Shown here: positions 2,424 through 21,244 of the stretch, piece by piece | Numbering within the stretch: the stretch's first letter is position 1 | Layout of the letters: every line of letters starts with the position of its first letter | NCBI GenBank assembly: GCA_022539475.1 | Contig: VCMS01000293.1 | Location: forward strand, 1-21,244 | From: Gracilaria domingensis | Taxonomy: Eukaryota; Rhodophyta; Florideophyceae; Gracilariales; Gracilariaceae | Direction: 5' to 3' | Length of the DNA: 21,244 nt | Made by a program: the position numbers and the translations under genes | The notes under the pieces: model-generated | What the model was told of the DNA's origin: nothing | What the model saw: only the letters and a program-made list of their open reading frames with translations | Database searches by the model: none

Positions 2424-4118
2424 TCAACAATAACTTTCGTTGAATGAAGTGTACGAATGACCGGCTATTTCGAAGAATCTCATTTTCCTTGGTTCAGATG
2501 CGCTGTCGGGAATTAATGACATTCGTTGCGTTGGACCATAAGAGCGCGTGACAAACCATGGATCTGGAATGAAAAGCACTGGACGATTGATTTTCTCACA
2601 AAGAACAACATCCAGAATCACGTCTGCTTCAGAATGAGATGTCTTGGCATACTCGAATCTCTTGTGATTGCAACGACTAACAACAAGCTTGTTGCCGGGC
2701 TCTGGTTCAATTTCTGTTAAGCGTCTGATGATTGCGACCTTGATATTCGGCATAGCTTCGTGGCGAAACAAAGACTGCAATAGTCCGTATTTCCTCTCAT
2801 TGTTGAGGGAGTAATGCACACCATCGCGTCTATCCGATGTGCGATACACCTTCTCACCTGCGTAAACTGCAGTACGGAAAGAATGTTCCGCCCACCAATC
2901 AGGTATCGCCTCGAACGAGTACCTCTTGAACAGAATCCCCGTTTTCTTGTCGCTCTCATTCTTAATCAGATGCAACCGCTTAATCCTGTGCTCCACAGAA
3001 CTATTGCACTTCAATATATTCTTCATCTCGTCGAAAAGGTTTTGAAGCATCTGTGGGTTGCCGGGGCTGCCTTGTAACTGTATATCATTTGGTGTGGAAT
3101 GAACTTCATTCTCTGCTTCTGTTTGAATTTGAGTTTCGACCACAGTTCTCGAAAGTACTAATTGAGCAAATTGGAACGGCTGGGTTTCTCTCTCTTGAGC
3201 AGTGGCGTCATTGTTCACATTTATGCTTTCTCTGCCACATAACAGCCGTGGTGTAATGTCATCCAAGTGCTTATTTGTGGAGAGAAAGGCTCGTTTCGTG
3301 ACTTTATGTTTAGTCTCGTTTTCTTCTGTTGAACCTTTCAGAATGCAACCGAAATCTCTGATATGGTTTCCAACGTGATATATCAGACGGTGGAACTTCG
3401 TGTTGATAGAAGAGTTCAGAACTTTCACTACCTCTTTTCCGGTTTACAGACAGATCATTTCAAGATTTTGAATGTTTTTTTCGCTTCTATTGGCATTTGC
3501 AGGTGACTGATTGATTTTAAAGATCTCTATATAAATCAGGTCGGTCTTGAGGCATGCCTGCAAAAGTGGATCAGAATCTGGATTGGTATCAAGAGCTAAG
3601 CCCATAATTGCGTACCAATAGAAGGGCAATGATGACCTGCGTAGTTTTCCAGACAATCCAGCCTGGCGTTCGTTTTCGTTGAGTCGAAAGGGACCTACAT
3701 GACCAATTCTTGCTGCCTTTGGAAGATCCAGTATTCTTTGGTTCGCTATTCTTACGATCATGGCTTTTGACAATCGTTGGTACTGGTTCAGAGCAAAGAA
3801 GGCTTTGTGGTAGTCATCCGGTATCTGTTTTAAAATGCCCAAATCACAAACGTGAAGTTTATTGAACCCAATGCACTTGAATAATCTCCAAGGCGAGCTC
3901 CCCAAACCGTTGATTGCGGCTATCGCAGGAGGGAATTCTAGCGCATAGGAATCCAGTAAGAACTTCTTGGCAGCACGTAGTTCACACGTGGAAACTATTC
4001 CGATTTGGCTTTGCCATTTGTGCCATAGCTTATCATTTTGGTCCACAACAAGTTGACAATATCGTCTGTGTTTCCGGGATGCTAGTTTACAGTCCAAAAA
4101 TCGCAGAAAAAAAATGCT
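2424..4118 (-). pseudogene. Decayed Plavaka/CACTA-like DNA transposase
   Basis: One frame runs from about 4118 to 2424 on the minus strand, broken by a single in-frame TAA at 3444-3446. It would encode about 560 residues, the middle and C-terminal part of a transposase. Family-like features appear in the expected order: a segment with SSPWRLF and KLHVCDLGILK near 3830-3910, where the family has its conserved Leu-His-x-x-x-x-Gly stretch, then HRLIYHVGNHIRDFG and a STEENETKHK segment just after the stop, then a C-terminal region ending in a PDPW motif. The N-terminal zinc finger and first catalytic part are missing, and no ATG opens the frame. Unlike the other long genes here it has a nonsense codon but no frame shift, so it looks genuinely dead. 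The family call rests on remembered motif order, not on an alignment. It is oriented opposite to the transposase at 6203-9335. Confidence 0.6.
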
Positions 4119-4286
4119 AGTATTTCATATGTTAAATTGCGATTAGTGGAAGTTTGAAGTGGAAGAAAAACTAGAGTAAACTCCATATTCTGCAGTATGG
4201 TTCGAATGGAATACTAGGCTTGACTTTCAAACTACGAGTTATTTCTAAGAAATATGAAAGTTGCTAGAATCTTAGAACTAACTTCC

Positions 4287-6202: not shown

Positions 6203-9200
6203 ATGCACAACTGTTGTTTCTCCCGCTGCTCATTCCATACACAGTCCCTCGCCTCTCTCGCCCAGCATCAGGAGCGATGCAGACACAGGACTGACCCAAA
6301 CCCGTTTCTCACCCCAACACCTCATCGAGGATCCCACTTCCCTCCCCGAACCAAGCGCCGCAGACTCAACAACACCGAACCCCATTTCTTCCCCCCCTGT
6401 AACCGCCCGTCCGATAACGTAGCACTCGCAGACGACGACCCTTATCTCCTGGAACAGCTTGCTCTCTCCCTACGCTCATCCGACGCAGCACAGATACTCA
6501 GCCCGCATCACCAACTCGCCTCCCAGTCCCCTTCCATAGGCTCAGGTAACGCCTTCTCCCCCTCTCCACCCTCACAGAAAGACCACATCCATAACCTCGT
6601 CACCTACATATCCTCCATCGCCACAAAACTCGGAAAGCGTTCTGCTGACGAGCTCATCAACATTCTCAAGCAATCCACCTTTCCCTCTTCCCTCTTCCAG
6701 ACCTCCATCACTTCCGCTGCCGAATGTCTGAAACTGCACTCCAAAATCTTCGAAGAAACAGTCAGCTCCATTGGGTTCACCTCAACCATCATCCATGACA
6801 AAAACCATAGCTTCTCCGCCACCCTCTACCTCAGGGACCCCGTTCAGGTTCTCCTACAACAACTTCGTCTCGCATCCCACAGCAACTCCTTCTTTTATCC
6901 AGTCAAACAAGCTTCAAGAACAGGAACTACCGCAATCGCACACCCTATGGCTTCAGAACTCGGCCGCCATGTCGTCCCGACTATCAAGAGGCATATCATG
7001 CATTCTCCGGACCCCGACGTCATCTGGCACGATCCCAGTATCACCGGCACAGACTCGTTCGTCGGCCTCGTTCAACTATATTCAGACAAGTCTTCCACCT
7101 CTTTGAAAAGTTCTTCTGTTACGTCGTATCCTCTTCACATCACCCTCCTCAATTTCAATGACTCCTTCCGCAGAAGTGCATCACGCAGAACTACACACTC
7201 GTCGGATACATACCCACATCCTTCACCTCCGATTCGTCCTCCACTGACACAGATTCCTTGGGAGTAGCTCCCTCAACCCCCAGCGTGACCCGCATTGTGC
7301 GCATGCAGCTCGTCCAGGAGTTCCTAGAAACCATCCTCAAACCTCTGTATCATATCGGTATGAAGGGTTTTCCCTTCCGCGACGCCAAAGGAGTCCTTCG
7401 TCAATGCCATCCAGTCATCTCCAACTACAGCGCTGACATCCCCGAAGCCAAGGACATTCTCGCATTACTTCATGGCACAAAGCCAAGCAAACCCTGCCAC
7501 CGGTGTCTCCTCCCTCGTTCAAAACTCAACCTCTACCAACCTACTCTCACAGAGCGAACCCTCTCACACACTTTGCAAACCAGAAAAAGACATGATGACC
7601 TACTTCTCGAGGCAGATTCTGCTCTCCTCTCCCATAGATCACGGGTTGCAAGGAACCTCAAAGAAGAAGCTGCAGAACTTCTCCACTCCACCTCTCTCTC
7701 TCCATACAAGTCCTTTCTGGAATCTTACCCTCTTCTCAACATCTCTTCACTGCTCACTCCTTATTCAATCTTCTCCTTGGAGCCCCTTCACAACTTTCAC
7801 CTTGGCATCTCTAAACTCATCAAACTCGCCACAATCGAACGCCTGAAGTCCGATTCTCTTCACACTTCCGTGGGCTTCAATGGATCCTCCAGGTCGTTTC
7901 GGTCCATCAGAACATCTATTCTTACTCACGCCAACTCCATCTTAGCTGACATCGAACGCTCGTTTCCGGCTCCAGGGCTTCATATTGATTTCTCGACATC
8001 TGAAAAGGGTAAGTCTCTCAACGGCTTCTTCACCACTGACGGAATCAGAGGCATGCTAGAAGCAAAGGACTATCGCGCCCTCGACATGGTCTTCCCCTTC
8101 ATCGGTGCATTCTTCGACCGTTGCTGCGGTGAAGTATCTCCCGCCCCAATAACCACCATTTTCACCTCTTACGTCGATCTCGTCAATAACGTTCTACACT
8201 ACCACACTGCCACAGAATGGACTGATGATCGCTTACGCTCTTTGGAGACTCTCATCAAGAACTTCAAGACTCAAACTGTCTCAGTTTTGGGTCCATACCA
8301 GGCCTCCAACTTTTGTACTCTCAAATTTCATCTCCTGGATCACATCATTCCAGACATCCGTCGATACGGAGGCCTCCATTTCGGTGATGCAGGTGTGTAC
8401 GAGCACGCGCATCTCCTGTTCAAGAACCACTACCGCCGTACCTCTCGCAGAAGATCAACTGCGCATAAGGAAACAGTGGACTCAATCCAAGAGTCGCAGG
8501 ATTTCTTACACTCCATCTCGGTAAGGAAACACTTCTCCATGTCTACCAACTCGGCCAGTCGTTTGTCGCAGCGGTGTTCCTCCATGGTTCGTGATGGTAG
8601 TTCATTCTCCCTCTTCGACATCATCACGGCCGACAAGTATCTACGGTCCGATCCAAACGTCCCGTCATCTGCTCTCACAGATTTGTTCTCCAAAACTACA
8701 TTGCAGTTCATCAACCAAATCTCTCGCGACGCCCTCTCTTCCTTCCGTACCCTAAGCTTAGAAACTCTTCAACCGTTGGACAACCCCCATGACATCAAAA
8801 TCACCGTCGTTAACTCCGCTTACATTGTTTCTGGATTCTGCCCCTCGCTGGATGACTACGATCGTCACTTTCAATGCATTAGACTGCGAGAGCCGGAGGT
8901 CTCTTTGTGTGAACGTATTTTTGCAACCACTTCTTTCGGCCCTTCCAAGTCCCCAAAATTCTCTACCGTCCTGGTTAATGGAACTCTTCCTCCCGGTTGT
9001 GCTTCCCGACCGCATGGGTATTCAAAGTCTTTGCCCTGGTTCGCTTTAGCAGATGTAACCAAAGCAATTCCGATTCTGAATTTGCCTTTGTTCGCTTCTT
9101 CGAGGTAACGGAGCCGTTGGATAACATTGACGAATCCTTGAACTGCATTTCCCTCCGCTGGGCCACGGATGACGAGGAAGATCACACATTGCAAACCTCC

Positions 9201-9335
9201 AATTCTCTAAAACGGTCAACAACTGCATCTGTATCCCCATGGTTCGGTCTCGTCCCATTCTCTTCGATCAAAGGCTCGGTACACATCCTCCGACAAAACT
9301 ATCCCGCACGCCCCTTTTTCCCTCCATTGCACTAG
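6203..9335 (+). CDS. Plavaka/CACTA-like DNA transposase, two frame breaks
   Basis: About 1,040 residues in three successive frames: 6203-7267, then 7258-9108, then about 9000-9335. The ATG at 6203 opens a C2H2-like zinc finger (residues 1-30: a CC...C cluster, then H and CRH), as is usual at the N-terminus of this family. Later landmarks in family order are HDPSITGTDSF and LYSDKSSTS (about 7029-7090), LVGYIP (about 7198), a Cys cluster KPCHRCLLP (about 7490), EPLHNFHLGISK (about 7782), a helical stretch with KFHLLDHIIPDIRRYGG and H-rich residues (about 8320-8420), and a C-terminal SSIKGSVHIL. Restoring one base in each window (7162-7267, and 9000-9108, most likely the AAA at 9061-9063) makes one continuous protein. 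No internal stop otherwise occurs, so the copy may be functional. It would catalyse cut-and-paste transposition by DDE chemistry; the individual acidic residues were not assigned. TIRs and target duplications were not identified. Confidence 0.75.
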
Positions 9336-9435: not shown

Positions 9436-11363
9436 TTAGTGATGTTCTATCCAATTCTCCTCATGTAATCCTTCTTGCACAGACCTTTCCGTCACATCCC
9501 TCTCTGCAGTTATTTCGTAGAACATACGGTGTCCCCGACTGCAGCATCCAACATAGCAATCCAGTACAGCTCCGAGCTTCTCAGAGATCTCTCCCATAAA
9601 CATATCTTCTCGGACAGCAAGGTACATTTTCCTTTTCGACGGAATCCAGTAAACCACAGTGCCCACCCGGTCATCATTTCCATGCGGCGCATCTTCAGCA
9701 TTCGATGGGCCATTTCTGAACTCTGTTGGATAACTCTGCTGCATGCGGACCCTCACGGTCTTCAGTATAATCTCAAGTGCCAGTGGTAGATATTTCCCGA
9801 ACAAGTTGGAGAACAACACTTGTCTCTTACCACCTCTCCCTCGTTCAGACTCTGTCGCGCGAACAACGGACGCTATCCAGGCATCAAGACGTGCCAGATG
9901 CATAATTGTTCCATCCACTGGATCCCTCTCTTCGGTATTCCTCGAACTTGTTTGTAAAACGTCGTAGCCCATGAACTCACGCAGCACCTCCAAGCTCAGG
10001 CTGTTCCGAAAAAGCAAGTCACATGGTTCATCTTCGGTTGCATGATATGGGTTAAAGCCCGAGAAACATATATCTTCTACCTTCTGAGTTCTCCACGACG
10101 ACAGAATCTCACATCCATTTGCATCTTCGGGTAGGAGTTTTTCACGTACCTCTCTGGTTTGTATTTCATACTTGTTCTGCTCCCTTTCATCATTTTTTAT
10201 CGGGGTCCTTACAAGCATGTCGTAACCTAGTCCCATCAATAACTTCTCCTTCGCATGGCGTTTTCGAACACCTATTGCATCACTTAAAGCCTGTTTCAAC
10301 CTTCTGCGCAAACAAATGTCGTGCGTTAACTGTTTCACACAGTCATCTTCCATTTTCATTTCTCGGATAGATTCCGAACGTGGCTTCATTACCTCCGTCT
10401 CCACAATTTGCATCAAAAAATGGTCGCCTCCACCACGTACGGATGGCGTGTACGCCCTCATCTCCATGGCAAGATCCATTGGGCACCGTGGCACTATCTC
10501 CTTCCCATCAACAACCAGCACACTGTCGTCTTTCTCAGGTCCAACTGTCTCACTTCGGTTGCCCCAGTTCCTTGCCGGTATACTCATCTCGAAGCATAGC
10601 TCTCTTGTCTCGTCTTTGGCGTATTGAAGTATGGAGTAATAGACGGTCTTCGCAACACCAACAAACTCGTCGTTCACGTCAATGTTGTACCGCTTCCTGC
10701 TCTTGTTACTGTCACGTTCGTTCCTTTTCCCTCCACGTCTGAGAGCCTCTCTCAAAGAGTGTATGAGAACCTCTTGTTCTCTGACCTTAACCTCCAGTTG
10801 CTCTATGTTCTTCTGAGCAAGTCGTACGCTCATTTTCAGACTTTGTTTGTCCTCTATTGTACGATACAGATCTCCCTTCAGTTTCCCGATCTTTTCCAAA
10901 AGCTCGTATCGCGGAGTAAGGGATTCATCTTCATCTTCTTCCATTGCACCATGCAGGGAAAAGCTCCGTGACAAAGCACCACGATCAACATCTTTATCGT
11001 TCCATACTTCTCTACGGGCGTTTGCTATGACAGGTTCTCGATCGTTCCCCACCCGTCTATTCTCATTTCCATGGTTCGTCCTTCTTCTGACCTGATTGAA
11101 CCTGTTTCTCTGTGACTCACCTGTGACTGGTGTCGGTTGTATCTCGTCTTCGTCTTCGTCTTCCTTGTGTCTGGACCCAACATGAGGGACGGAATCATGC
11201 CTGCCTTCGATGGGAGCCATATGCGTTGCATTTCCGGCGTCCACGTTGTCGTTCGCCTCCACGTTATCCTTGTCCTCGACGTCACTTGGGATATCTACTG
11301 CCTCCGTGGACTCCCGCTCCTTTTTCCACTGCCTTTCTTGGCACGAGAGACACCCTCATTCAT
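9436..11363 (-). CDS. Coiled-coil protein of unknown function
   Basis: About 642 residues. The main frame (11262-9436) has no ATG near its open 5' end. An ATG at 11363 in the neighbouring frame gives a natural basic start (MNEGVSRAKKGSGK) that passes into the main frame if one A is restored in the AAAAA run at 11321-11325. I therefore place the start at 11363. The N-terminal 150 residues are charged and disordered with DEDEDE and EEDEDE clusters. A heptad-like coiled coil follows (about 160-210: LLEKIGKLKGDLYR, then EQLEVKVREQEVLIHSLREAL), then a basic patch (RRGGKRNERDSNKSRKR) and a C-terminal region of about 400 residues with no family I recognise. It is the last gene of the leftward block, 27 bp after the stop of the small basic protein, so the two may even be parts of one product. 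No catalytic motif is visible. A structural or DNA-binding partner is a guess. Confidence 0.65.
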
Positions 11364-11390
11364 TTTCTCGTTCCTCTTCACTTATCCGAA

Positions 11391-12002
11391 TCATGATTCA
11401 CTCGAATCATAACTGTTACGTTCTGTTCCGGCAGCGCTTCTGGGTATCTCCCTATCCCCAGGTTCGGCTCTAGGTTCGGCTCTCACGATGGCGCAATCCA
11501 CGGTTTCCATCTCCGCATTGTCATCCGCAGTTCTCACCTTGTCGAAACAATCATCGATACGAGGACCTTCTGTTCCTCCACTGCCTCTTGTCCTCCTTAC
11601 ATTCTGACGTACAGCCGTTCTTCTCTTATTTCCTTTCATCGCTTTGATATCTACATTTCCATCATCACTGACCCTTGGCTCTTCCATTGCAGCCATGTAG
11701 CGTGTAACAGGCCCACGCATTGCACTATCCTTGGCTTGAACGGTTTCACTTACTGTGCGTTCCGTAGTGCATGTGGAAGCTCCTGACCTCCTTCTCGGTT
11801 TTACTTCCGATACTGTAGATGAAGATTTTGGTTTGCGAAGTCCAGCACGAGGTGCTCGGCCTCGGCTACCTCTCCCATTAGTAGCACTACTTCGTGAGAC
11901 GACCGCGCTCCTACGTTTGGCCACCCCAGTATCCCAGCGCTCCGGCGGTACCGATGCCTTTCGCGGTTTACCACCTGCATGCTCCGCACGTTGAGGGGCC
12001 AT
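11391..12002 (-). CDS. Small very basic, disordered protein
   Basis: 203 residues from the ATG at 12002. The frame stays open further upstream to about 12296, but that part reads like non-coding DNA. The MAPQ start resembles the MAPQLRSGTK start of the divergent gene at 16864. The sequence is low-complexity and rich in Arg, Lys and Ser (KPRRRSG, KGNKRRTAVRQNVRRTRG), with an acidic C-terminal stretch and a RAEPRAEPGD repeat. No fold or catalytic motif is recognisable. Such composition suits a nucleic-acid- or chromatin-binding tail protein, but that is inference. The stop lies only 27 bp before the ATG of the coiled-coil gene, with no room for a separate promoter. Either the two share a transcript in some way, or a further sequence error separates two parts of one long protein. 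Confidence 0.5.
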   Translation of the reverse strand: MAPQRAEHAGGKPRKASVPPERWDTGVAKRRSAVVSRSSATNGRGSRGRAPRAGLRKPKSSSTVSEVKPRRRSGASTCTTERTVSETVQAKDSAMRGPVTRYMAAMEEPRVSDDGNVDIKAMKGNKRRTAVRQNVRRTRGSGGTEGPRIDDCFDKVRTADDNAEMETVDCAIVRAEPRAEPGDREIPRSAAGTERNSYDSSES

Positions 12003-12466
12003 CCGAGATCCTTCGGCCTTCGTGCGCGGTAGTATTACGGAACAGATGTAGAAACGTGAACGATACTGAAGGTATATGATTGAGAGTGATATGTGAGGGT
12101 CACGTACTCGGTGTGCAGGACTGATATGTGAAGGGGAGGGGAATTTAACCTCGTACTGCATATATCGAGAAAAGCATTCTGCAGCATTTGTGGCGGATCG
12201 GCATTCAATTTTTGGACCTTTCCCGGGTCCATATTCCGGACTTGGTCCGATTTTCCCGGATGTTGCGCCTTGCATATACAAGTACGGCACTTTCAACCAT
12301 CTTTCATACCACTATATGCATCAATATGTTACATAGTACAGCTTGAGTGTACATATGAGTAGTATTTCTGCAATCATAGCAGAAGTGTTCAATACAATTT
12401 ACTTCAACAAAAAGCTTTTCTCACTACATTAAGCCCATACGAAGTTCAAGGACATTGTCTGAGAAC
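12003..12466. promoter_or_regulatory. Intergenic 464 bp: 3' end of MTase-SET gene, promoter of basic gene
   Basis: No gene is supported here. Read on the minus strand it must hold the end of the MTase-SET transcript and the promoter of the small basic gene. Visible items are a short hairpin TTCTGC...GCAGAA (about 12366-12386), two copies of TGATATGTGA (about 12087 and 12121), and AT-rich sequence at 12297-12420 with no coding character. None of these is diagnostic. Confidence 0.3.
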
Positions 12467-15400
12467 CTAGGTTAACCTTTCCAATGGATATGTGGGTCCA
12501 TAGTCAACGTAAATTTCGTCGTGCTCCTTAATGTCCCTTGAGGCCGTGACTACGAGGAGTCTGTAGTTCTCCAAAAGCCCCAAAGTTGTAGCCTGATACT
12601 CTGTGGGCTGGCGAATGAATACATTTGGTTTGCGTGCCATGTTAGAATCCATTTCTTCCAATTCCTTGTCCTCATCACCTTCACGATATGACGCGTCATT
12701 GATATAGCCCGCTACACAGAAAGGAGCAGGAACTATCCAGTCATGACCAGCGTTGACTTCAGTATCATAATGCGGGAGAGTGTTGTACATTTGCCCCTTC
12801 ACCCTCACTTGCATGCAATACTTCCTGAACCGAGATGCAGTGGCCCCCAGCATTCCGTCTCCATACGTCAAATGTGTGGTATTGCGTCGGCTTAGATCAT
12901 GATACACCAAGGTCCCATAAAAGTATCCAATAACCTCCCCTTCGGAAAACGCCCTACTCGTAAATACTCCATTTCCACTTGCTGCATGTTTGATATTCGA
13001 CTTCTTCACATAGAGCCATAGCGATGTCGCCTCGACAGAGAGTAAAGTGTGACTGTCCAACGTAGTCATCTTCCCTTGTAAGGCAAGTGGCCACTCATGG
13101 AACGGTTTCTCTTTGTACGTAGTGATAAGACCAGGTTCATTCCAATAGGTGGATAGGTACGACATGATATGGAATGGGAAAGATTGGTACGATGGGAATC
13201 CCTTGGGTGCATTCCATATAGTCGAAGTCTTTCGTTTCCGTTCAGGAAATTTGGCATCCACCACATAAGACGCTTGAACTACCTCATTCGTAACCGGTTC
13301 TTTCATCTTCAATTCATTGCGCCACACCTTTCTTGCGTAGTGCACAATAGCATTGTGCTTGGCATGAGAGAAACACTGCTCATCTTGCTCACATCCAATG
13401 AAACGCCGAGGCCCCTCAATATCCATACATGCCAGCGCGCACGAGAACGTCCCGGAGTAGAGATCAACCACAACATCCCCGGGATTCGAGAACCTCGCTA
13501 TCAGCTCCATCAGTAGTTGCCTCGACTTTTTTCTGGACGAGCCTTCGCGGTTCGAATTCTTCTACCACTCTTCACTCTCCATCGGAGACTCTCCCCAGGC
13601 GTAAGATTTGGAACCTGGTCAATGATAGAATAGTGCCCAGAATAGCGAGCTGAAACGTAGTTGAAGTTCTGATAGTTCACCATTACCTTCTGTTCCGCGT
13701 ACGGGTTTCCATTCCTCACGCCATGCACGGCGTACTCCGTCGCCCCAAACAGGCGAGTAGTATTACGCGCAGGGTTCTTCAAGGGGTTCGAACGAGAACG
13801 AATGAAGTTCATGGGCGTCGAATCCACTAAGAATGATGCGGTTTTCTTTCCGCTTGCGTCCTCCGACTTGTGCTCTCGCAAAATCTCTTCCCAGTCTCCA
13901 AACTGGTCGATACTGCAGAACAAAACGAAATGTCCTCCTGGTCGAAGCATGGATGCCATGATGTCCGCAGTATTGTCCATATCATCGTCAGCCAATTCGT
14001 CGTACTCGCTGTCGCGGATGCCATATGGTGGGTCTGTGAGCACGAACTGAACGTTGCCTTCCAAAGATGTATCCGATGGGAAGATAGTACCATGGGCCTC
14101 CACCAGTTCGTCATATCCGACACAATGCATTGAGAATTGCTTCTCCATGCTTCCTCGCACCACATCTAGAGCATTTAACGTGCGCGTGTCATCAAAGTCA
14201 TGAGGGGGGAGAACCCCATCTGGAACGTTATCTTTCGCCCCAACAGAGGCACCAGGTGTATCACCTTCTTCATTGTCGCTATCGAGGATGACGATGACAT
14301 CGGAGTTAACTGAGCTTTTCCCTGCGGCGTTCCTCTTGGAGGAGCTCGGAATCTGTATCGAGTCCTCAACCTTAACCGTGACGGTATTACTTCCTCCATC
14401 CTGCCCTGAAGGAGCGGCCCTAGGGATAAGTCGAGATGGTTGGAGTTATGTACAGACATCGCTTGACGAATAGAAGACACGTACTCTTTGGAGAATACAT
14501 TGAAACGGGGTGGTACTCGTGCGGGGCGGCCAGGTCTGAAGCTTTCCAACAAATTCCATCTTGACGTTGGGGACATTTTGTATAGGAAGCCATTCAACAC
14601 AATCTTGCTGAAATCTGCCAAGAATTCCTTTGCCAACTCCCGTAAGTTGGCGTCGATAGTATCCGGAAGAGTATGAACCCAAGAAACGGTGTCGTTCACA
14701 TCCAACGTGGGTTTCAGTTCTTCCCCCAACGTATGAAAAGCTGACTCCGGACTGTACCCAACAGAGCGGGATTCAATGACATGGAACCCAAGCGACTTCT
14801 TTTCTACAAGCAGGTATGGCAGCAACATCTGCTCACCATCACCAAAGCCTAAGGTTGAGGCAAAGAAATCCCATCCCTTACAAATCGTTTGCACTGCATG
14901 TGCCATCCGTCTCCCGTGCGTCTCATTCGAAGCTATGTAGCCGTCGACGAACTGCACAGCTCTATGGGTTCCCTTCCCGGTCTTTCCTCTCTTCGCCGCT
15001 GGGAGATTTCTCTCCGAAGTTATATGCTTCACGAAAGAGAGATAGAGTAACTGCTGAAAACGAGTGGGAGGCCCAATCCTGAACGTAGTTCTCTTCGTCT
15101 GCTTACTGCCTGGACCATGTCGTTTGAAAAGGTCATTCCAGAAAGCCCGTTCTATGAACGAGTTACCGTTGTCGACATCCTTTTCAAGACTCCAGGTAAA
15201 CAAATCTCTCACGCGCCGATCAGAATTCTCGTCGTCTAGATCAGTGATACGCGTATATTTGTAGACCCTGCTCAGAAAACGCACGTCCAGACAGATCTTC
15301 GTGACTTCTTTTGCGGAGTAGTTTTGGAAAGGACCCTTGACCGCAGTGGTGATGAACTCTCGTGCACATGCCAGGTGTTCACGGTTTGATACAGCGTATT

Positions 15401-15632
15401 CCACAACTTCCGTGTACCCAACTTCACGCGGATTACCAGTACCACTTCTTGAAGCGGCATACGCATCTCGCAACTCAATGAACAACCCCCAACATTTCAA
15501 GAAACGCGTTGCCATGCTGGCTGAATCGAACGACGCGCTAGAGGATGCGCTAGAGGATACCGTGCCGTGGTTCTCATCGGCCAGCACACTCTGCTTAACA
15601 GTCCGAGGAGCGTCATTTCCGGTGGACGCCAT
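12467..15632 (-). CDS. DNA amino-methyltransferase - SET domain fusion, two frame breaks
   Basis: About 1,055 residues in three successive frames: 15632-14175, 14445-13510 and 13543-12467. Residues 1-395 are mostly helical and match nothing I know. A disordered acidic linker follows, with VKVED (14362-14376, SUMO-acceptor type) and VIVILDSDNEEGD (14260-14298, SUMO-interaction type). Next comes a beta-class (IV before I) amino-methyltransferase: DPPYG at 14020-14034 (about residue 533), then SMLRPGGHFVLFC, then the SAM motif GDVVVDLYSGTFSC and RFIGCEQDE (about residues 715-745). DPPY suggests N6-adenine methylation; N4-cytosine is not excluded. The last 180 residues form a SET domain: GNGVFTSRAFSEGEVIGYFYG, GYINDASY with KPNV, and EIYVDYGPTY. 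The A6 run at 13527-13532 splits the methyltransferase; one extra A joins its halves exactly as in the family. The first break lies between 14445 and 14175. The gene is divergent from the ParB-dioxygenase gene. Confidence 0.8.
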
Positions 15633-15911
15633 GTAAGAACTGAGAATCGGAAAGGACGCGAAGTAAACGAGTATTGTGAACGGTAGAAGTTTCGGAGATG
15701 TTTAAATGGGTGGGAAGCGTCGGAAACGTCGGGAAGCGTCGGAAACAATGGTGGAGAGCGCGGTTGCGACGGATTACCGAGAACTGAGCGGGTAATGAAA
15801 TAGAGAGACGAGAGTGGGATCTAAACACATCAAACCGGTGGGGCACCTCAGTATGTGCAGTGCATTATATGTCTAGTATGTAAAACCAACGTAGAAAACA
15901 CTGGGTTCGTA
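15633..15911 (-). promoter_or_regulatory. Probable promoter of MTase-SET gene
   Basis: This 279-bp non-coding stretch lies between the ATG at 15632 and the foldback edge at 15912. It contains a perfect tandem 16-bp direct repeat, GGGAAGCGTCGGAAAC, at 15712-15727 and 15731-15746 (19-bp period), about 80-115 bp before the start codon. That spacing suits a protein-binding pair. I see no clear TATA box. Confidence 0.4.
15712..15746. repeat. Two tandem 16-bp repeats, candidate operator
   Basis: GGGAAGCGTCGGAAAC occurs twice without mismatch, 19 bp apart, in the presumed promoter of the leftward block. Two identical 16-mers this close are very unlikely by chance. It could be a binding site for a host factor or for one of the element's own proteins. 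Confidence 0.7.
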
Positions 15912-15941
15912 CATCTTTGAACATCGCCCGAGCGCCGTGTG

Positions 15942-16017
15942 GGAACCGCGGTTCGCCGAGTTCATAGCCGAGATCATAGCTATGATCTCGGCTATGAACT
16001 CGGCGAACCGCGGTTCC
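15942..16017. repeat. Perfect 76-bp palindrome, left arm
   Basis: Bases 15942-15979 are the exact reverse complement of 15980-16017, centred on CATAG/CTATG with no spacer. Imperfect symmetry extends to GCGCCGTG (15932-15939) and CACGGCGC (16020-16027). An identical copy is at 16439-16514. It could extrude a cruciform on its own. Confidence 0.95.
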
Positions 16018-16093
16018 GGCACGGCGCATCTGACGAAACGCCACGTGTATACCGCCGAAAGGACCCCCCCTGATGACCCCCCTGGAGGACCCC

Positions 16094-16260
16094 TTGCTGG
16101 CGTTTATGTGGGCAGTGACGTCGAATAAACGGGAGAGCGATGGAGACGCGGATGACACTTCGGACACATTGTGTAGCAAGCGTGGAAGACGGAGGGGAAG
16201 GGCTTGAGGAGGAGAGACGATGCGGTGGGAGCGGAGCAGCGCACGGAGGGCGGCGGCCAT
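16094..16260 (-). pseudogene. Captured 5' exon of an organelle-targeted protein (likely)
   Basis: On the minus strand an ATG at 16260 in strong context (GTCGATGGCC) opens about 55 codons that read like a transit peptide: MAAALRALLRSHRIVSPP, then Leu/Arg/Ser-rich sequence without acidic residues for about 35 positions. After DVTAHINAS the frame runs into the foldback arm and palindrome and becomes meaningless. The fragment is GC-rich with a coding look, and it lies inside the foldback spacer. It is therefore probably a piece of a host gene picked up by the element, as Pack-MULE-type elements do. The inner arm pair repeats the codons for VTAHINAS, so capture or duplication extended into the arm. 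The parent protein is not identifiable from so short a piece. Confidence 0.45.
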
Positions 16261-16438
16261 CGACGGGGCGTCACTTATTCACTGCCCACATAAACGCCAG
16301 CAACACCACCAGGTAGTGGTGGTGTGGGTGAGAACAGGTGCTTTGGTGCGCATTGTGTAGTAGAAGTGGTCTCCAGGGGGTCCTCAGGGGGGTCCTTTCG
16401 GCGGTATACACGTGGCGTTTCGTCAGATGCGCCGTGCC

Positions 16439-16514
16439 GGAACCGCGGTTCGCCGAGTTCATAGCCGAGATCATAGCTATGATCTCGGCTATGAACTCGG
16501 CGAACCGCGGTTCC
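16439..16514. repeat. Perfect 76-bp palindrome, right arm
   Basis: This is identical to 15942-16017, so four copies of the same 38-bp unit occur within 573 bp. The flanks are mirror images of those of the left copy: GTGCCGG precedes it and CCCACACGG follows it, the reverse complement of the left arrangement. Confidence 0.95.
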
Positions 16515-16544
16515 CACACGGCGCTCGGGCGATGTTCAAAGATG

Positions 16545-16863
16545 ATGAAAGGCGGGGACAGTGGTCAACCAGGACGGAATCAGACATTGATCCAACCATT
16601 TATAACCATCAGGAACTGTACCCACACTGCTCACGTGGGCATTGCAGCCGTTTTGAACGTGAGTGGTTGCGTCCATTGTGCTCACGCGAGAAAGGGCGGA
16701 GATTCGAACACGAGCGGTTGCAACTTCACGGGAGCAAACGTACGATTTGAAGAACACCAGGACTCGTGTATATCACACACACTGGCACCATATAATGGAT
16801 ATGAGGGGACTGGGAAAGGGTCAAATGAGACGCTCTCGAAAGGTGAGAAAGCCTCGACGAACC
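16545..16863 (+). promoter_or_regulatory. Probable promoter of ParB-dioxygenase gene
   Basis: This non-coding stretch lies between the foldback edge and the ATG at 16864. It contains two imperfect tandem copies of a 51-bp unit (16628-16729), a CACGTG word at about 16632, and a TATAATGG word at about 16790, roughly 70 bp before the chosen start. The frame is open through part of this stretch, with an alternative ATG at 16798. Confidence 0.4.
16628..16729. repeat. Two imperfect tandem 51-bp repeats
   Basis: TGCTCACG recurs at 16628 and 16679. GAACGTGAGTGGTTGC at 16655 is matched by GAACACGAGCGGTTGC at 16706, again 51 bp apart. The repeat is about 65-75% identical by eye. It sits 130-240 bp before the rightward start codon, so it may be a duplicated regulatory module. 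Confidence 0.5.
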
Positions 16864-19800
16864 ATGGCACCACAACTTCGGAGCGGGACCAAAACTGCTG
16901 AACCGAACGCAGCGACGGGGAACGCATCCACAGCTATGAAGTCGAAGCCCGCACCAGGCGAAGAAGTGACCTTGTTGTTGGGAGGGGCAGGAGGGAACAA
17001 AGCAGCGATTGGGAAAGCTGTTCTCGTTGAAGTGGACGCTGGTGGAGGGAAGACAACGTTCAGAAGGGAAATGCATGGACATGCTCTGCAGGGAAAACCA
17101 GGGGAAGATGTAGTTGGTATATGGCGAGCGAAGATATCTCATGAGCTTGACACTCCCTATCCCTATCCCTTTAAGTGTACCGATGAAGATTCTGTTCCGA
17201 AGACATTGAAGGACATGAACAGGCCCGGTTTCTACGCCTGGGACCTGAACTTAATGTCTAAGGTGGGTGACGTCGTAAGCGCTGATGAAGGGACAAGGGT
17301 GCTCCGAGTTCCAAATTCGTCGCCCCTGAGAAGCCATCGAATACTGCTGGGAAACGGGTGCGAGTGGTAGAACCTAAAACTCCATCCAGTGCCCGAAAGC
17401 GAATGCAGATGAAAGTGGCTCATGTGAAAACCCCGTCGAATGCTAAAAAACCCCAAGGCGGGAAACAAGCGCCAGTACCAAAGCTGAAAACACCATCGAA
17501 CGTTCACGGTGGTGGAAAGCAGATGCAAGAATTCAAGATGACCACGACCCCAGAGAGTGCTGTATCGGCATTTCGTAAACAAACTGCTACGATTGTGCAG
17601 TCTGGAGCATCGAGGAACAGCACTGCGGAAGCTATTACTCAGGCTGGAAATCGCAGTGGAGTGACAATGGAAGTGATTGACGTGGATGAAGACGAAGACG
17701 AAGACGTGGTTCTAGTGAAGGAAAGCCTTGGAAGCAACGTCAATGAACTCTTTGATGAAGGTGATGTGATACCTCCTGATGATGTCGATACGAGTTTAGC
17801 GAGTTTGGTATTTGACTTAGATCATTACGAGTATGTGTCTGTTCAAGTCGATATTGAGCTCATTCAAGTTCCGGAAATGACTGTGAGAGGGTTGTTCCGG
17901 AATCATGTCGAGGCTCTGAAAGAAGAGATTGGACGAAAAAGCTTCTTACAGGCACTTGGGACCATGAGCGTTGCTGTTCTGTCTCAGGATGTGTCCGAGA
18001 AGGACATAGTGCAGAACAATCGCTTGAAAGTGAATTGTGTGCTGATTGATGGAGCTCATCGTTATGTAGCACTCAAAGAGCTCTGTGAATCTATGCCCAA
18101 CATTAGGAATCTATGTGGAGGTCTTTCTGTTTCGCTGTGGAAGAGAAAAGATGGACAGAAGATGACCACGAGGGAAATCTTGAGCCTTGGCAATGTGCTA
18201 AACGATGGATTGAAGCAAGCTCGTCTTATGGGTTTTGCTGACAAGGTGCATTCTATTGTGTCATTTATAAGGGTCCTGGTTGAGGAAGAGAAGAAGGACT
18301 TGAGCAAGATGACGAGGACCTCTGTCGCAGGTGCACTAAGTGTTTGCGGTATCATTGGCCAGTACAATATCAAGCATTTGGCAAGATTTGCAGAGATGGG
18401 GTTGAAGGTGGCGAAAAGTCCTGGATTGCTGGAACATTTGGAGCGGATTTGTGGGGACTACCATGAGATTGGAATTTCTTGTATATCAAGTGATGAATTC
18501 TTTACCATGGATGAGCATACAACCCACTTCACGCTCGACGCTCTGGTTGCATACTTTTCCAGGAGGCGAGTGTCGAAACTGACGGGTCGTTTTGAAGACG
18601 TACGCAAATACTTCTTTATCTGCTGCAGGAGGCTTCAATCTTTGGCAGAGAAGCTTTCGAAGAAGAAGAAAGTTACATTGGAAGAAGCGTATGCCATGAA
18701 GGTGGAAGTGACAAAGTTTGAAATGCGCACCGTTCGTGAGTACCTTGCAACACAGGCAGCACGAATTGAAGTACCTTCGAATAAGAAGCTCTGGGAAGGA
18801 AGGATTTCGAGAAGAGTCTGGATTGCTCGTGATAAGCTGGCAAAGAGTTTAGGGGTGGATATGTTGAAACCTGCCACTGGTACTACGCCGACTGAAACAC
18901 AGTCTGAGACCAAAGCGGTAGACGAGTCTACAACGCAGAGAATGGCCACACGTTCGGCAAGTAGGAAGGCCAAAGCGCCAGTGCGCAAGGGCTCTAAGGA
19001 CTCTGATGTAGAAAGTGAAGAGAATATGCCATCGAAGACAAGAAGCATGAGGAGTTCAAGACGAAGCCGTCGACGAAGGAATGCAATGAGAGACGTGAAC
19101 CCTAATCAACGGAAGAAGTCAAGGACGGAGGGTATTCAATCTGTTCAGGATGAAGCTATCAGTCATCTGCGAAGTCTTGGTGCGAAGGGGGTGAGAACGT
19201 ATTGAAAAGTCATCAGATATCCATTGGCAGCTACACACACTCAGATGGAGTACCAATTGCGGTCTCACAGGCAGAGGACACTGACCCGTTCGATGACACA
19301 GTACCGCAGGTGTTGGCGCCAGGTCTGAAGAAGGCTGAAGAAGTAGCATATGAAGGTGACGATTCGTGGCTAAAGTTGGTGAAGACCTTACCAAGCAAGT
19401 GGCCGACTGGAGTGGAGAATGTCATTAAATCTGTGTACCCGTGGATGGATGCGATACATCTCCAGAAGCAACACCGAGGCCACTTGTTGAGCCCAAGGAC
19501 TTTGAAAGTGTGCACCATGCAGTCTTTTGGCATGCAGCGTATCATGGCCATAAACTCCTGAACGCGGCAATGGGAGGCATGGAGGTCGACGAGAAGACGT
19601 TATGGGGGGATGCACTGAAGAACGACTCTCTTGCGTATGTCTATTTTGTGAAGAAGAACGTCGAGCTTCGAGAGAGAGGTTTCTGTATTCTGGACGGCTT
19701 TGCATCGGATGGAGAGTTGGTGAAGCTGACAGAAAGTTTGAGAAGCTCATTGACGGGGATGTTAGTGTGGAATTACTGGACTTCTTCCGAAGGACTTCGA

Positions 19801-20637
19801 GAGGGCTCCAGACCTTAGGATACCAGAGAACCGAATCACATGGATACCGATCATCAACGCAGATGGTGGGAGGTACATGACTACGAGAAGAGGCATAGTG
19901 GATGACATGGAGGCAGCCGTAGAAAGACATGTGCTTGTGAAGAAGAGAGCTTTACTGGATGCCCGACTGGTACAGATATGTGCTTTAATGGGTTTACAAG
20001 ATAATAGGGTGGAAAAGGAGAGGATGTATGCGCCGAAGACGGGGGGGAGGGTGTTATGTACTGCAGTTGGATGCAAGCGGCAGCAGTTACATACGGATTT
20101 CCCGACCTTGGCGAATGAGGATAAGCTGGAAGAAAAGAAGAACCTGGGGTACTTTATGATGGTGTCCGGAAGTGTGTCGTTTCCAATTTGGGTATGTGAA
20201 GGGTCTCATACACACTACGCAGTTACTCCCAAGGCATTTGAAGGTTTGGCACGGGGGATGTTTGTGAGGAAGTTTTTCGTTCCACCTAGGTCTATATTTA
20301 TTGGAAGAGGTGATGTGTTCCATGCAGGCGCTTCAAATGAGGATGGAAGATTCCCGAGATTCCCTTGTTTCGTTACCATATGTACATGGTACCTGAGAAA
20401 TACAACCTCCCGGATGCGGTACACCTTAACCCACACTTTCGACCTCAGTTCAAGGAGGATGAAGACCTGGTTAGTATGAAGGAGAAGAGGAAGAATCCAG
20501 AACCGTCGAATTTGGAGGAGGAGAATGATGAGGTGATAGTAGAGGAAGGGGAAGAACAGTATGAAGAAGATGACGAAGATGAGAATTATGAAGTGGAGGA
20601 GATTGAAAACGATCTTGAGGATGGCGAAGAGGACTGA
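16864..20637 (+). CDS. ParB-like domain - 2-oxoglutarate/Fe(II) dioxygenase fusion, six frame breaks
   Basis: About 1,260 residues if six single bases are restored (about 17323, 19187, 19438, 19733, 19792 and 20362). The ATG at 16864 has an ideal context (ACCATGG). Order: a small unknown N-terminal domain (30-140); a basic tail with three KTPS repeats (155-216); a SUMO-interaction-like VIDVDEDEDED (17673-17705); a ParB/sulfiredoxin-like domain with VLIDGAHRYVALKEL (18039-18083); a helical region (420-670); a basic stretch SSRRSRRRRNA (NLS-like); and a dioxygenase (about 930-1190). The dioxygenase has ERGFCILDGF at its start, the iron-binding HTD at 20090-20098, the distal His in DVFHAG at 20321-20323 and the 2-oxoglutarate-type Arg at 20371-20373 in FRYHMY. 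The tail is strongly acidic. Distal His and Arg lie on either side of the last break, so the enzyme is complete only when joined. ParB and dioxygenase parts meet at GGGGG (19187-19191). The second part has no in-frame ATG near its start, which favours one fused protein. Substrate unknown; DNA is plausible. Confidence 0.72.
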
Positions 20638-20963
20638 GTGAATATGTGATGAAACTTTGTAGTAATCTATGTGTCGAATATAGTTTCGAAGTAAATGATC
20701 TTGTGAATCGAGAGAAAGTTTAAGAATTGTGGAAGCGACGACTCTACCCAAGATTGAAGGGTAGGATAGGATACCATACCAAACACTTCAATCCTGGAGA
20801 GCGTCATGAATATGTGGGAACTATGTTTGTAGAGAAGAGATTCTGTTTAGTTGAAACATGTATCAGTTATGTACTTATGTTCGTATACTACTTGTCTCGC
20901 ACTTGGTGAATACGTCAGCCAGAAGGCAGTAGATGTTGTGTCGGGGGTCTAGGGTGCTCACCA
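20638..20963. other. Intergenic 326 bp, no gene seen
   Basis: AT-rich sequence between the acidic tail of the ParB-dioxygenase gene and the ATG at 20964. It should hold the 3' end of the former and the promoter of the latter. A small run of GGATAGGATACC-type words lies near 20763-20777. No polyadenylation signal of the AATAAA type stands out. Confidence 0.35.
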
Positions 20964-21244
20964 ATGGCGCACAAGTATCGCTTTGCGTTGATTCTTGGTG
21001 CGTGTTTGACGACTCCGGAGCATACAAGTAGTACAATGAACAAGGTGTTTGTGAGGAGGGGCGGGATACCTCTGTACGAACCAAAGGATTCGGGGTCCAA
21101 AGACTCGGAGAGTGTGTGTGCGAAGAAAACTGGACCTACTCTGCTCAGAAAAAGTTTGATAGAAAAAGCAGGAAATCCTGAAGGACAAAGCTTTCCGAAG
21201 AGTTTAAGAATAAACGGCCAGTCCCTCTTCTCCGGTATACCACC
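20964..21244 (+). CDS. Unknown protein, cut by window edge
   Basis: An ATG at 20964 (ACCAATGG) opens 93 codons without a stop up to the last base, so the gene continues outside the window. The start reads MAHKYRFALILGACLTTPEH. This is followed by a basic, Ser/Lys-rich stretch (VFVRRGGIPLYEPK, KKTGPTLLRKSLIEKAG). No family is recognised. A weak hydrophobic segment (FALILGACL) near the N-terminus is too short for a confident signal peptide. It runs in the same direction as the ParB-dioxygenase gene, 326 bp after it, and could be a further member of the rightward block. The open length alone is moderate evidence; chance cannot be excluded. Confidence 0.45.
   Translation, partial: MAHKYRFALILGACLTTPEHTSSTMNKVFVRRGGIPLYEPKDSGSKDSESVCAKKTGPTLLRKSLIEKAGNPEGQSFPKSLRINGQSLFSGIP

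Follow-up and report, generated by a model that had tools for sequence, protein, structure and literature searches.

The window, that is, the whole stretch of DNA analysed here, comprises the first 21,244 bases of contig VCMS01000293.1 (C293) of the red alga Gracilaria domingensis, and contains two gene blocks that, as an earlier note on this DNA had observed, diverge from one centre (~15.6-16.8 kb). A red-algal source is borne out by 14 phycobilisome linker domain matches in the assembly, four of which lie on C680, a contig resembling a plastid genome, and ten elsewhere. We find that this divergent cassette is the cargo half of a large DNA transposon family that is almost certainly of the Plavaka type, and that the element is a new variant among transposons with epigenetic cargo. 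Four genes travel together: a Plavaka transposase, a coiled-coil-like protein, a fusion of a DNA amino-methyltransferase (MTase) to a SET domain, and, divergent from the latter, a gene with a ParB-like part and a 2-oxoglutarate/Fe(II) dioxygenase-like (2OG-like) part. The unit is larger than the cassette described in the earlier note: it runs from 4063 to ~C293:27170, with its right end past the window edge, and takes in a transposase (6.2-9.3 kb) absent from that note. Its features, in window coordinates unless C293 is named, are:

4063..4084, plus strand: left terminal inverted repeat, CGTCTGTGTTTCCGG...; three other copies align up to this exact point and their flanks differ
6203..9335, plus strand: Plavaka transposase gene, frame interrupted here; PF18759 at 9.8e-14 for 7162-9105
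9439..12002, minus strand: coiled-coil-like protein gene, frame interrupted here; no Pfam match above cut-off
12467..15632, minus strand: MTase-SET gene, interrupted here; MTase ~13358-14052, SET ~12497-12976, N-terminal region of unassigned fold
15932..16027, no strand: near-perfect 96-nt palindrome; its perfect 74-nt core has GAACCGCGGTTC at each end
16429..16524, no strand: second 96-nt palindrome, mirror-placed, its 74-nt core perfect, inside an arm of a 158-nt inverted repeat
16795..20637, plus strand: ParB-like plus 2OG-like gene, interrupted here; ParB-like ~17814-18320, 2OG-like ~19700-20390
20638..21244, no strand: right arm up to a sequence gap, no gene recognised; aligns with other copies
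C293:27149-27170, outside the window: right terminal inverted repeat

The ends of the element emerged from comparison of copies, the whole 77.9-Mb assembly having been searched. Of four copies fetched for the left side, C12, C140 and C277 diverge from the window at 4062/4063 and C8 is unmatched there; on the right, C12, C140, C8 and C61 (4/4 copies) all stop at one point. The termini are CGTCTGTG..CACAGACG, the inverted repeats beginning CGTCTGTG, and the genome contains 88 instances of the CGTCTGTGTTTCCGG end pattern at no more than one mismatch, against 0 in a reversed control. The copy on C25 is 20.4 kb long. Beyond the CG, a 2-bp direct duplication is present in eight of 13 end pairs (C25, C277, C96, C120, C202, C266, C42 and C281), against a chance expectation of ~0.8 among 13 pairs. 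CG was considered as the target duplication itself, all 13 ends being CG-flanked, and was rejected since empty sites place CG inside the element; the duplication is the next 2 bp. Paralogous empty sites, at which the joined flanks match at full length elsewhere in the genome, were found for five of the 13 pairs (C25, C277, C266, C281 and C120); this search scored 40 of 1911 candidates, and the remaining eight pairs are not thereby shown to be without an empty site. Ten empty-site places were fetched and nine aligned; eight of these lack the element and have the 2 bp just once, in the ninth (L130) the junction has changed in other ways, and the remaining place, L137, gave no aligned row. These ends, duplications and empty sites bear out the large mobile element that the earlier note had suspected and supply the terminal repeats and target duplications that it had proposed to look for. 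A point on the other side is that five pairs—the window's own (C293), C12, C140, C233 and C469—are without a 2-bp duplication.

In C25, C277 and C281, matches to all four genes, some of them partial, lie between duplicated ends, which shows that the genes have moved together in transposition; in C277 the 2OG part is missing from the rows. Genome-wide there are at least 120, 75, 74, 78 and 125 matches to the MTase-SET gene, the ParB part, the Plavaka transposase, the coil protein and the 2OG part, respectively (112/699, 69/584, 68/1317, 69/811 and 124/618 candidates scored per search; the copy counts are lower bounds). For the first four of these the numbers far exceed what chance would give. 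Linkage was counted over 108 of 120 MTase-SET, 66 of 75 ParB, 68 of 74 Plavaka and 68 of 78 coil rows, the rows dropped being additional pieces of genes that had been counted once (the coil list still includes one of these, on C142). The gene neighbourhood that the earlier note had suggested seeking elsewhere in this genome does recur: the nearest ParB row lies within 12 kb upstream of 46 of the 108 MTase rows and is divergent in 45 of these 46, the commonest gap being ~3,760 bases. The coil gene lies within 8 kb downstream of 57 of the 108, always on the same strand (57/57), and Plavaka within 12 kb downstream of 46, always on the opposite strand (46/46). Gene order and orientation are kept across dozens of copies. 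Against such linkage, 28 of the 108 MTase rows have no partner within range. The genes are multi-copy and linked, which excludes both that they never co-occur and that they are single-copy host genes; a host gene cluster was likewise rejected, on copy number and target duplications.

In a six-frame reading of the window copy every gene is cut into frames that overlap; elsewhere in the genome each can be read as one long open frame, with up to ~1110 codons for the transposase, 953 codons (several copies) for the coil protein, up to ~1118-1135 codons for MTase-SET and 1282-1308 codons for the ParB-2OG gene (intact copies L016 1003-4851, L015 1003-4854 and L237 378-4301). Decay at CpG was rejected as the cause of the stops: twelve copies of a 1.1-kb SET-region piece from the window's family (family 1) lie 0.1-2.7% from their majority, and the many apparent stops in some of them are therefore best explained by frame-shifting small indels, which could also be assembly errors. 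The coil protein has a basic, probably disordered start and, by eye, a coiled-coil-like middle. The right half of the window's element, which continues past a gap of 1084 N that begins directly beyond the window, looks chimeric on sequence similarity, with 87% likeness to the family in the right part and ~97-98% in the rest.

Membership of Plavaka is indicated by PF18759, which a family-3 relative of 1100 codons matches at 1e-18, passing the 26.3-bit cut-off, and by the 2-bp target duplication; termini of the fungal type are absent. Passages of Kojima 2025 (PMC12730594) give the fungal termini as TGT..ACA (PlavakaA) or CATCA..TGATG (PlavakaB), unlike the algal CGTCTGTG..CACAGACG, which places the algal element in a lineage of its own, either inside the fungal Plavaka groups or next to them.

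The MTase and SET assignments are firm profile matches. The window frame 12467-13561 matches PF01555 (N6_N4_Mtase, 1.8e-07) and PF00856 (SET, 3.6e-07) above cut-off, which confirms the minus-strand block read by the earlier note as a DNA amino-methyltransferase plus SET; in another copy both (1.3e-14 and 1.9e-06) fall within one open frame. The best sequence relatives in PDB are DpnA, CcrM and MboIIA. All but one of the 33 aligned MTase-SET proteins (32/33) retain DPPY or DPPF, before a D..AGTFS stretch that we take to be motif I of an N6/N4 MTase of what we take to be the beta class. The DPPY/F motif and the CcrM/DpnA-type matches favour N6-adenine, which is thus predicted to be a more likely target than N4-cytosine. 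One protein database search returned 31 relatives, 27 of them of 900-1100 residues, with an MTase domain precomputed in all 31 and a SET domain in 21; one, from Chondrus crispus, bears the source name adenine specific DNA methyltransferase. The SET stretches GTLVY-like, IND and DYG are present in many of the 33 rows and lost from some, IND being found in 20 of the 31 database proteins. Counting against a catalytic SET domain, it has ND where classical SET domains have NH, and we therefore regard it as a putative methyltransferase.

The other block, which the earlier note had read as ParB-like plus 2OG, is one gene in intact copies and its motifs are mostly kept in three families, but neither part reaches a Pfam or NCBIfam cut-off, so the two names are plausible and unproven. 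The ParB-like motifs are VDI..P...RG...HVEAL...I...FLQ ... IDGAHR..ALKEL, and the 2OG-like ones HTDF ... FPLW...GSH ... GRGDVFHAGA ... R; H-T-D, GRGDxxHAGA and the later R are kept in families 1-3 where covered. Aligned by hhalign to phage ParB_N, the ParB-like block gave E 0.0042 with the expected places aligned, against 0.38 and 0.67 for two unrelated control profiles, and in family 3 the same place has a weak match (E 0.22) to GmrSD_N, a family that we take to share the ParB-like fold. On these grounds the ParB assignment seems likely, as does, by motif, the 2OG assignment.

Several further results weigh against both names. With a larger and narrower set of 38 phage sequences (33 of 80 phage loci plus five, one narrow group), the ParB hhalign E rose to 0.029 and 2 of 100 column shuffles scored equally. 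The 2OG part has no profile or PDB match, and in L058, a broken copy, Y replaces the D of HTD. Single-sequence structure models were unusable (mean predicted local distance difference test scores of 43 for the ParB-like and 29 for the 2OG-like part), and Foldseek with the poor ParB-like model found nothing in PDB below E 0.19. Sequence searches were equally barren: no Pfam match to TET/JBP up to E 10, no homologue of the ParB-2OG gene at E 1e-3 in two protein database searches (~8000 candidates sharing most words scored in each), and nothing below E 3 for the ParB-like part in tblastn against phages. A cyanophage 2OG protein was dropped as profile seed, its sole matching locus being identical, that is, the same phage. 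In all, the domain searches called for by the earlier note placed N6_N4_Mtase and SET above cut-off and ParB and 2OG below.

The phage-like MTase (best phage-family match phrog_67, 1.1e-25) and the size of the element might point to an endogenous virus or viral relic. In viral_contigs, however, at least 64 MTase-SET loci listed match residues 507-792, which is the MTase part, and none matches the 2OG part; no capsid, polymerase or packaging match appeared in the frames tested, which cover the right arm incompletely; and the ends, 2-bp duplications and transposase are typical of a DNA transposon. A viral origin of the unit is therefore most unlikely.

The element falls into three families. Family 2 shares 60-70% protein identity with family 1; C231 gives a direct reading of its ParB-2OG and MTase-SET pair, and coil rows lie beside others (C351), so the gene set is one pieced from several copies, with no single copy shown to have all four. 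Family 3, with four genes in the family-1 order on C218 and C81, has identities of 36% (MTase-SET), 29% (ParB part), 45% (2OG), 48% (Plavaka) and, over a C-terminal piece, 37% (coil protein). It is young and abundant: of the 2OG matches whose identity is that of family 3 (45-46%), 42 in number, all but one (41) are free of internal stops. The element is recently active.

Ratios of nonsynonymous to synonymous substitution (dN/dS) between families 1 and 2 are 0.094 for MTase-SET, 0.086-0.095 for the 2OG part and 0.175 for the ParB part, values that are rough because synonymous sites are near saturation; for a piece of the coil protein, family 1 versus 3, the ratio is 0.34. Right-arm open frames slip between copies in the coding comparison. 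By these ratios, the MTase-SET and ParB-2OG genes have been under purifying selection. Functionless passenger genes that merely hitch-hike would account for the near-neutral differences among young copies (dN/dS 0.42-0.99 in three family-1 pairs) and for the many interrupted copies, though ratios in this range are also as for young, individually dispensable copies. Given the strong constraint between families 1 and 2, the four-gene order kept in family 3 at 36% MTase-SET identity, and the stop-free 2OG matches, we consider passengers very unlikely.

Between the two divergent genes the promoter (15912-16544) is a mirror, bounded by a 158-nt perfect inverted repeat (15912-16069 / 16387-16544) whose arms contain the two 96-nt palindromes; a script search of the window found no other palindromes with arms of at least 16. 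At least one such palindrome is present in all 11 other family-1 ParB loci fetched (L014-L024) and in C25 (L138), the exact search string occurring once only in L014, L020 and L138. Family 2 (L056) has one 146-nt palindrome, which is 88.6% like family 1 over 70 nt and is the sole part of the centre that matches by blastn, and in family 3 the C164 copy (L057) has five palindromes that differ from these in sequence, the C81 copy having shorter ones with arms of 16-19. Palindromy thus persists while the sequence changes. CCGCGG lies near both palindrome ends in families 1 and 3 (4/4 window sites and 10/11 L057 sites); composition predicts 4.1 occurrences anywhere in the window, and the four observed are all inside the palindromes.

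The palindromes are a candidate binding site for the ParB-like protein. A dimeric element-encoded binding protein, for which the ParB-like protein is the obvious candidate, would explain the kept palindromy; arm-to-arm copying would also explain it. Less favourable to a dedicated site are the CCGCGG near one end only in family 2 (2/4 sites) and the occurrence in family 3 of palindromes outside the centre, with arms of 22-24, past the Plavaka gene (L055, L238). As a separate observation, the decamer GAG(A/T)TCATAG occurs four times per palindrome (15958-16001 and 16455-16498), two per strand with 12-bp spacing, and as an exact match nowhere else in the window. Also, several contigs, among them C1, C40 and C215 (L239-L241 for their first 3 kb), start within the family-3 ParB-2OG gene, a pattern that may come from assembly breaks at the palindromic centre.

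Host DNA marks bear on what the cargo could do. A C5 DNA methyltransferase was not found in the host assembly (the control was detected in 10 of 14 genomes), CpG observed/expected is 0.90-1.07, and C-to-T (or G-to-A) differences summed over 12 copies show no CpG excess (9/1209 CpG positions versus 32/4717 other C/G positions); 5-methylcytosine (5mC) is probably absent or rare in the host. MT-A70 was not matched in the host, the control being likewise unmatched in that search. Removal of 5mC by the 2OG domain, as in TET/JBP-like anti-silencing, has in its favour the conserved HxD...H...R-like pattern of the 2OG-like part and the carriage of TET/JBP genes by the same transposon superfamily in fungi, described in passages of PMC12730594. 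Together with the lack of a TET/JBP profile match, the missing C5 methyltransferase and undepleted CpG make it improbable, and the fungal TET explanation is therefore not transferable to this host.

We favour a different anti-silencing or self-recognition mechanism, whose chances as a whole we judge to be evenly balanced. The ParB-like part would bind the palindromes of the mirror-image divergent promoter and so confine the other activities to the element; the MTase would put an amino-methyl mark on element DNA, the SET domain would methylate a protein located there, histone or otherwise; and the 2OG-like domain may act at this site too, oxidising or demethylating either a base or a protein. 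The element would thereby acquire privileged, expressible, transposition-competent chromatin, that is, anti-silencing or self-recognition and not silencing. Anti-silencing cargo on transposons has precedent in passages of PMC12730594, and PMC12695648, in whose searched text red algae are absent, reports that N6-methyladenine (6mA) accompanies trimethylated histone H3 lysine 4 and permissive chromatin in other eukaryotes; by analogy with this association, the fused adenine-type MTase and SET domain may suggest an activating, self-applied mark. Of the earlier note's wording, 'marks DNA and histones' agrees with the fusion of an N6/N4 MTase and a SET domain, as putative activities, but 'reads or removes the marks' is doubtful, the 2OG domain being assigned by motifs and having no host support if the mark is 5mC. 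A more specific version, in which the ParB-like protein nucleates on parS-like palindromes, and a combined methyl state of DNA adenine and histones is written and edited there by MTase-SET and 2OG, so that a bacterial-style partition/modification logic would serve anti-silencing in a host without 5mC, seems unlikely in all its details.

Alternatively, the MTase, the ParB-like protein and the palindromes might be transposition co-factors that time or target transposition, through methylation state after replication or by joining ends, with little role in silencing. The cargo genes do share one unit with the transposase, and the derivatives on C120, C202 and C266, which have no rows for parts of the set, retain two ends flanked by target duplications, so individual copies either do without the cargo or can be served by it in trans. 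Yet a SET or 2OG-like domain has no obvious role as transposition co-factor, and the window's long palindromes lie in the promoter and not at an element end; we regard the co-factor explanation as possible if somewhat unlikely.

If, on the anti-silencing mechanism, one enzyme combines DNA and putative histone methylation while a putative oxidising enzyme is encoded on the far side of a palindromic promoter, and the host assembly yielded no C5 DNA methyltransferase, a directly testable question arises: can a mobile element install its own 6mA/N4-methylcytosine-plus-histone mark in a eukaryote? Transposons carrying chromatin enzymes are natural experiments in beating silencing, and if the mechanism is true, compact site-directed dual writers would be gained.

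The earlier note knew of no described system with this set. Indeed the gene set was not found in the literature searched (open-licence PubMed Central), and the long palindromes in the divergent promoter of all three families are a new observation of this analysis, but the parts are published. According to passages of PMC12730594, Plavaka elements of Agaricales and other fungal transposons carry TET/JBP dioxygenase genes, and the former share with the algal element a Plavaka transposase, 2-bp duplications and an epigenetic cargo of dioxygenase type. In the algal element, by contrast, a ParB-like part is joined to the dioxygenase-like one, and the N6/N4 MTase-SET fusion and the palindromic divergent promoter come in addition. 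Passages of the same paper cite SET genes on the HarbingerS and MuDR transposons of Phytophthora (oomycetes), which are likewise DNA transposons with SET cargo but have a different transposase; a fusion of SET to a DNA methyltransferase is not mentioned for them there. The Amoebidium giant repeats, as a portion of PMC11244446 describes them, are likewise large Plavaka-flanked units, but many of their genes are tyrosine recombinases and the host uses 5mC.

Phage proteins L152-L154 have a ParB_N domain ahead of an N6/N4 DNA methylase. They resemble the algal set in combining a ParB-type domain with a beta-class methylase but do so in one protein, whereas the alga has its ParB-like and MTase parts in separate, divergent genes, both of which carry one more domain. 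ParB and N6/N4 methylase share one protein in three of five ParB_N matches among 36 phage records, a non-random sample since the records had been picked through their methylases. By analogy, it is tempting to suppose that both divergent algal genes may come from one prokaryotic source. Retrotransposons with cytosine methyltransferases were reportedly described by de Mendoza in 2018; these retroelements likewise have their own DNA methyltransferase, but of the cytosine C5 type, whereas the algal enzyme is of the N6/N4 type and on a DNA transposon.

Between the left end and the transposase lie subterminal direct repeats, 4794-4983/5336-5527 (~190 bp) and 5260-5336/5716-5792 (~77 bp), which blastn with other copies revealed as secondary matches at 81-90%. 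Minus-strand open frames at 2424-4124 adjoin the left end of the element. A short stretch within 3444-4124 resembles the Plavaka stretch FEPLHNLHLGISKLI (BLASTP E 0.023, one comparison) and 2424-3443 shows no such resemblance (E 1.3); these frames are perhaps an older, different Plavaka-like gene invaded by the element. Family-1 elements on C12 (L026 3824-4396, right flank) and C233 (L041, right flank) abut an identical point of a family-3-like 2OG gene and differ in their left flanks; the elements are thus nested in one another and have probably recombined.

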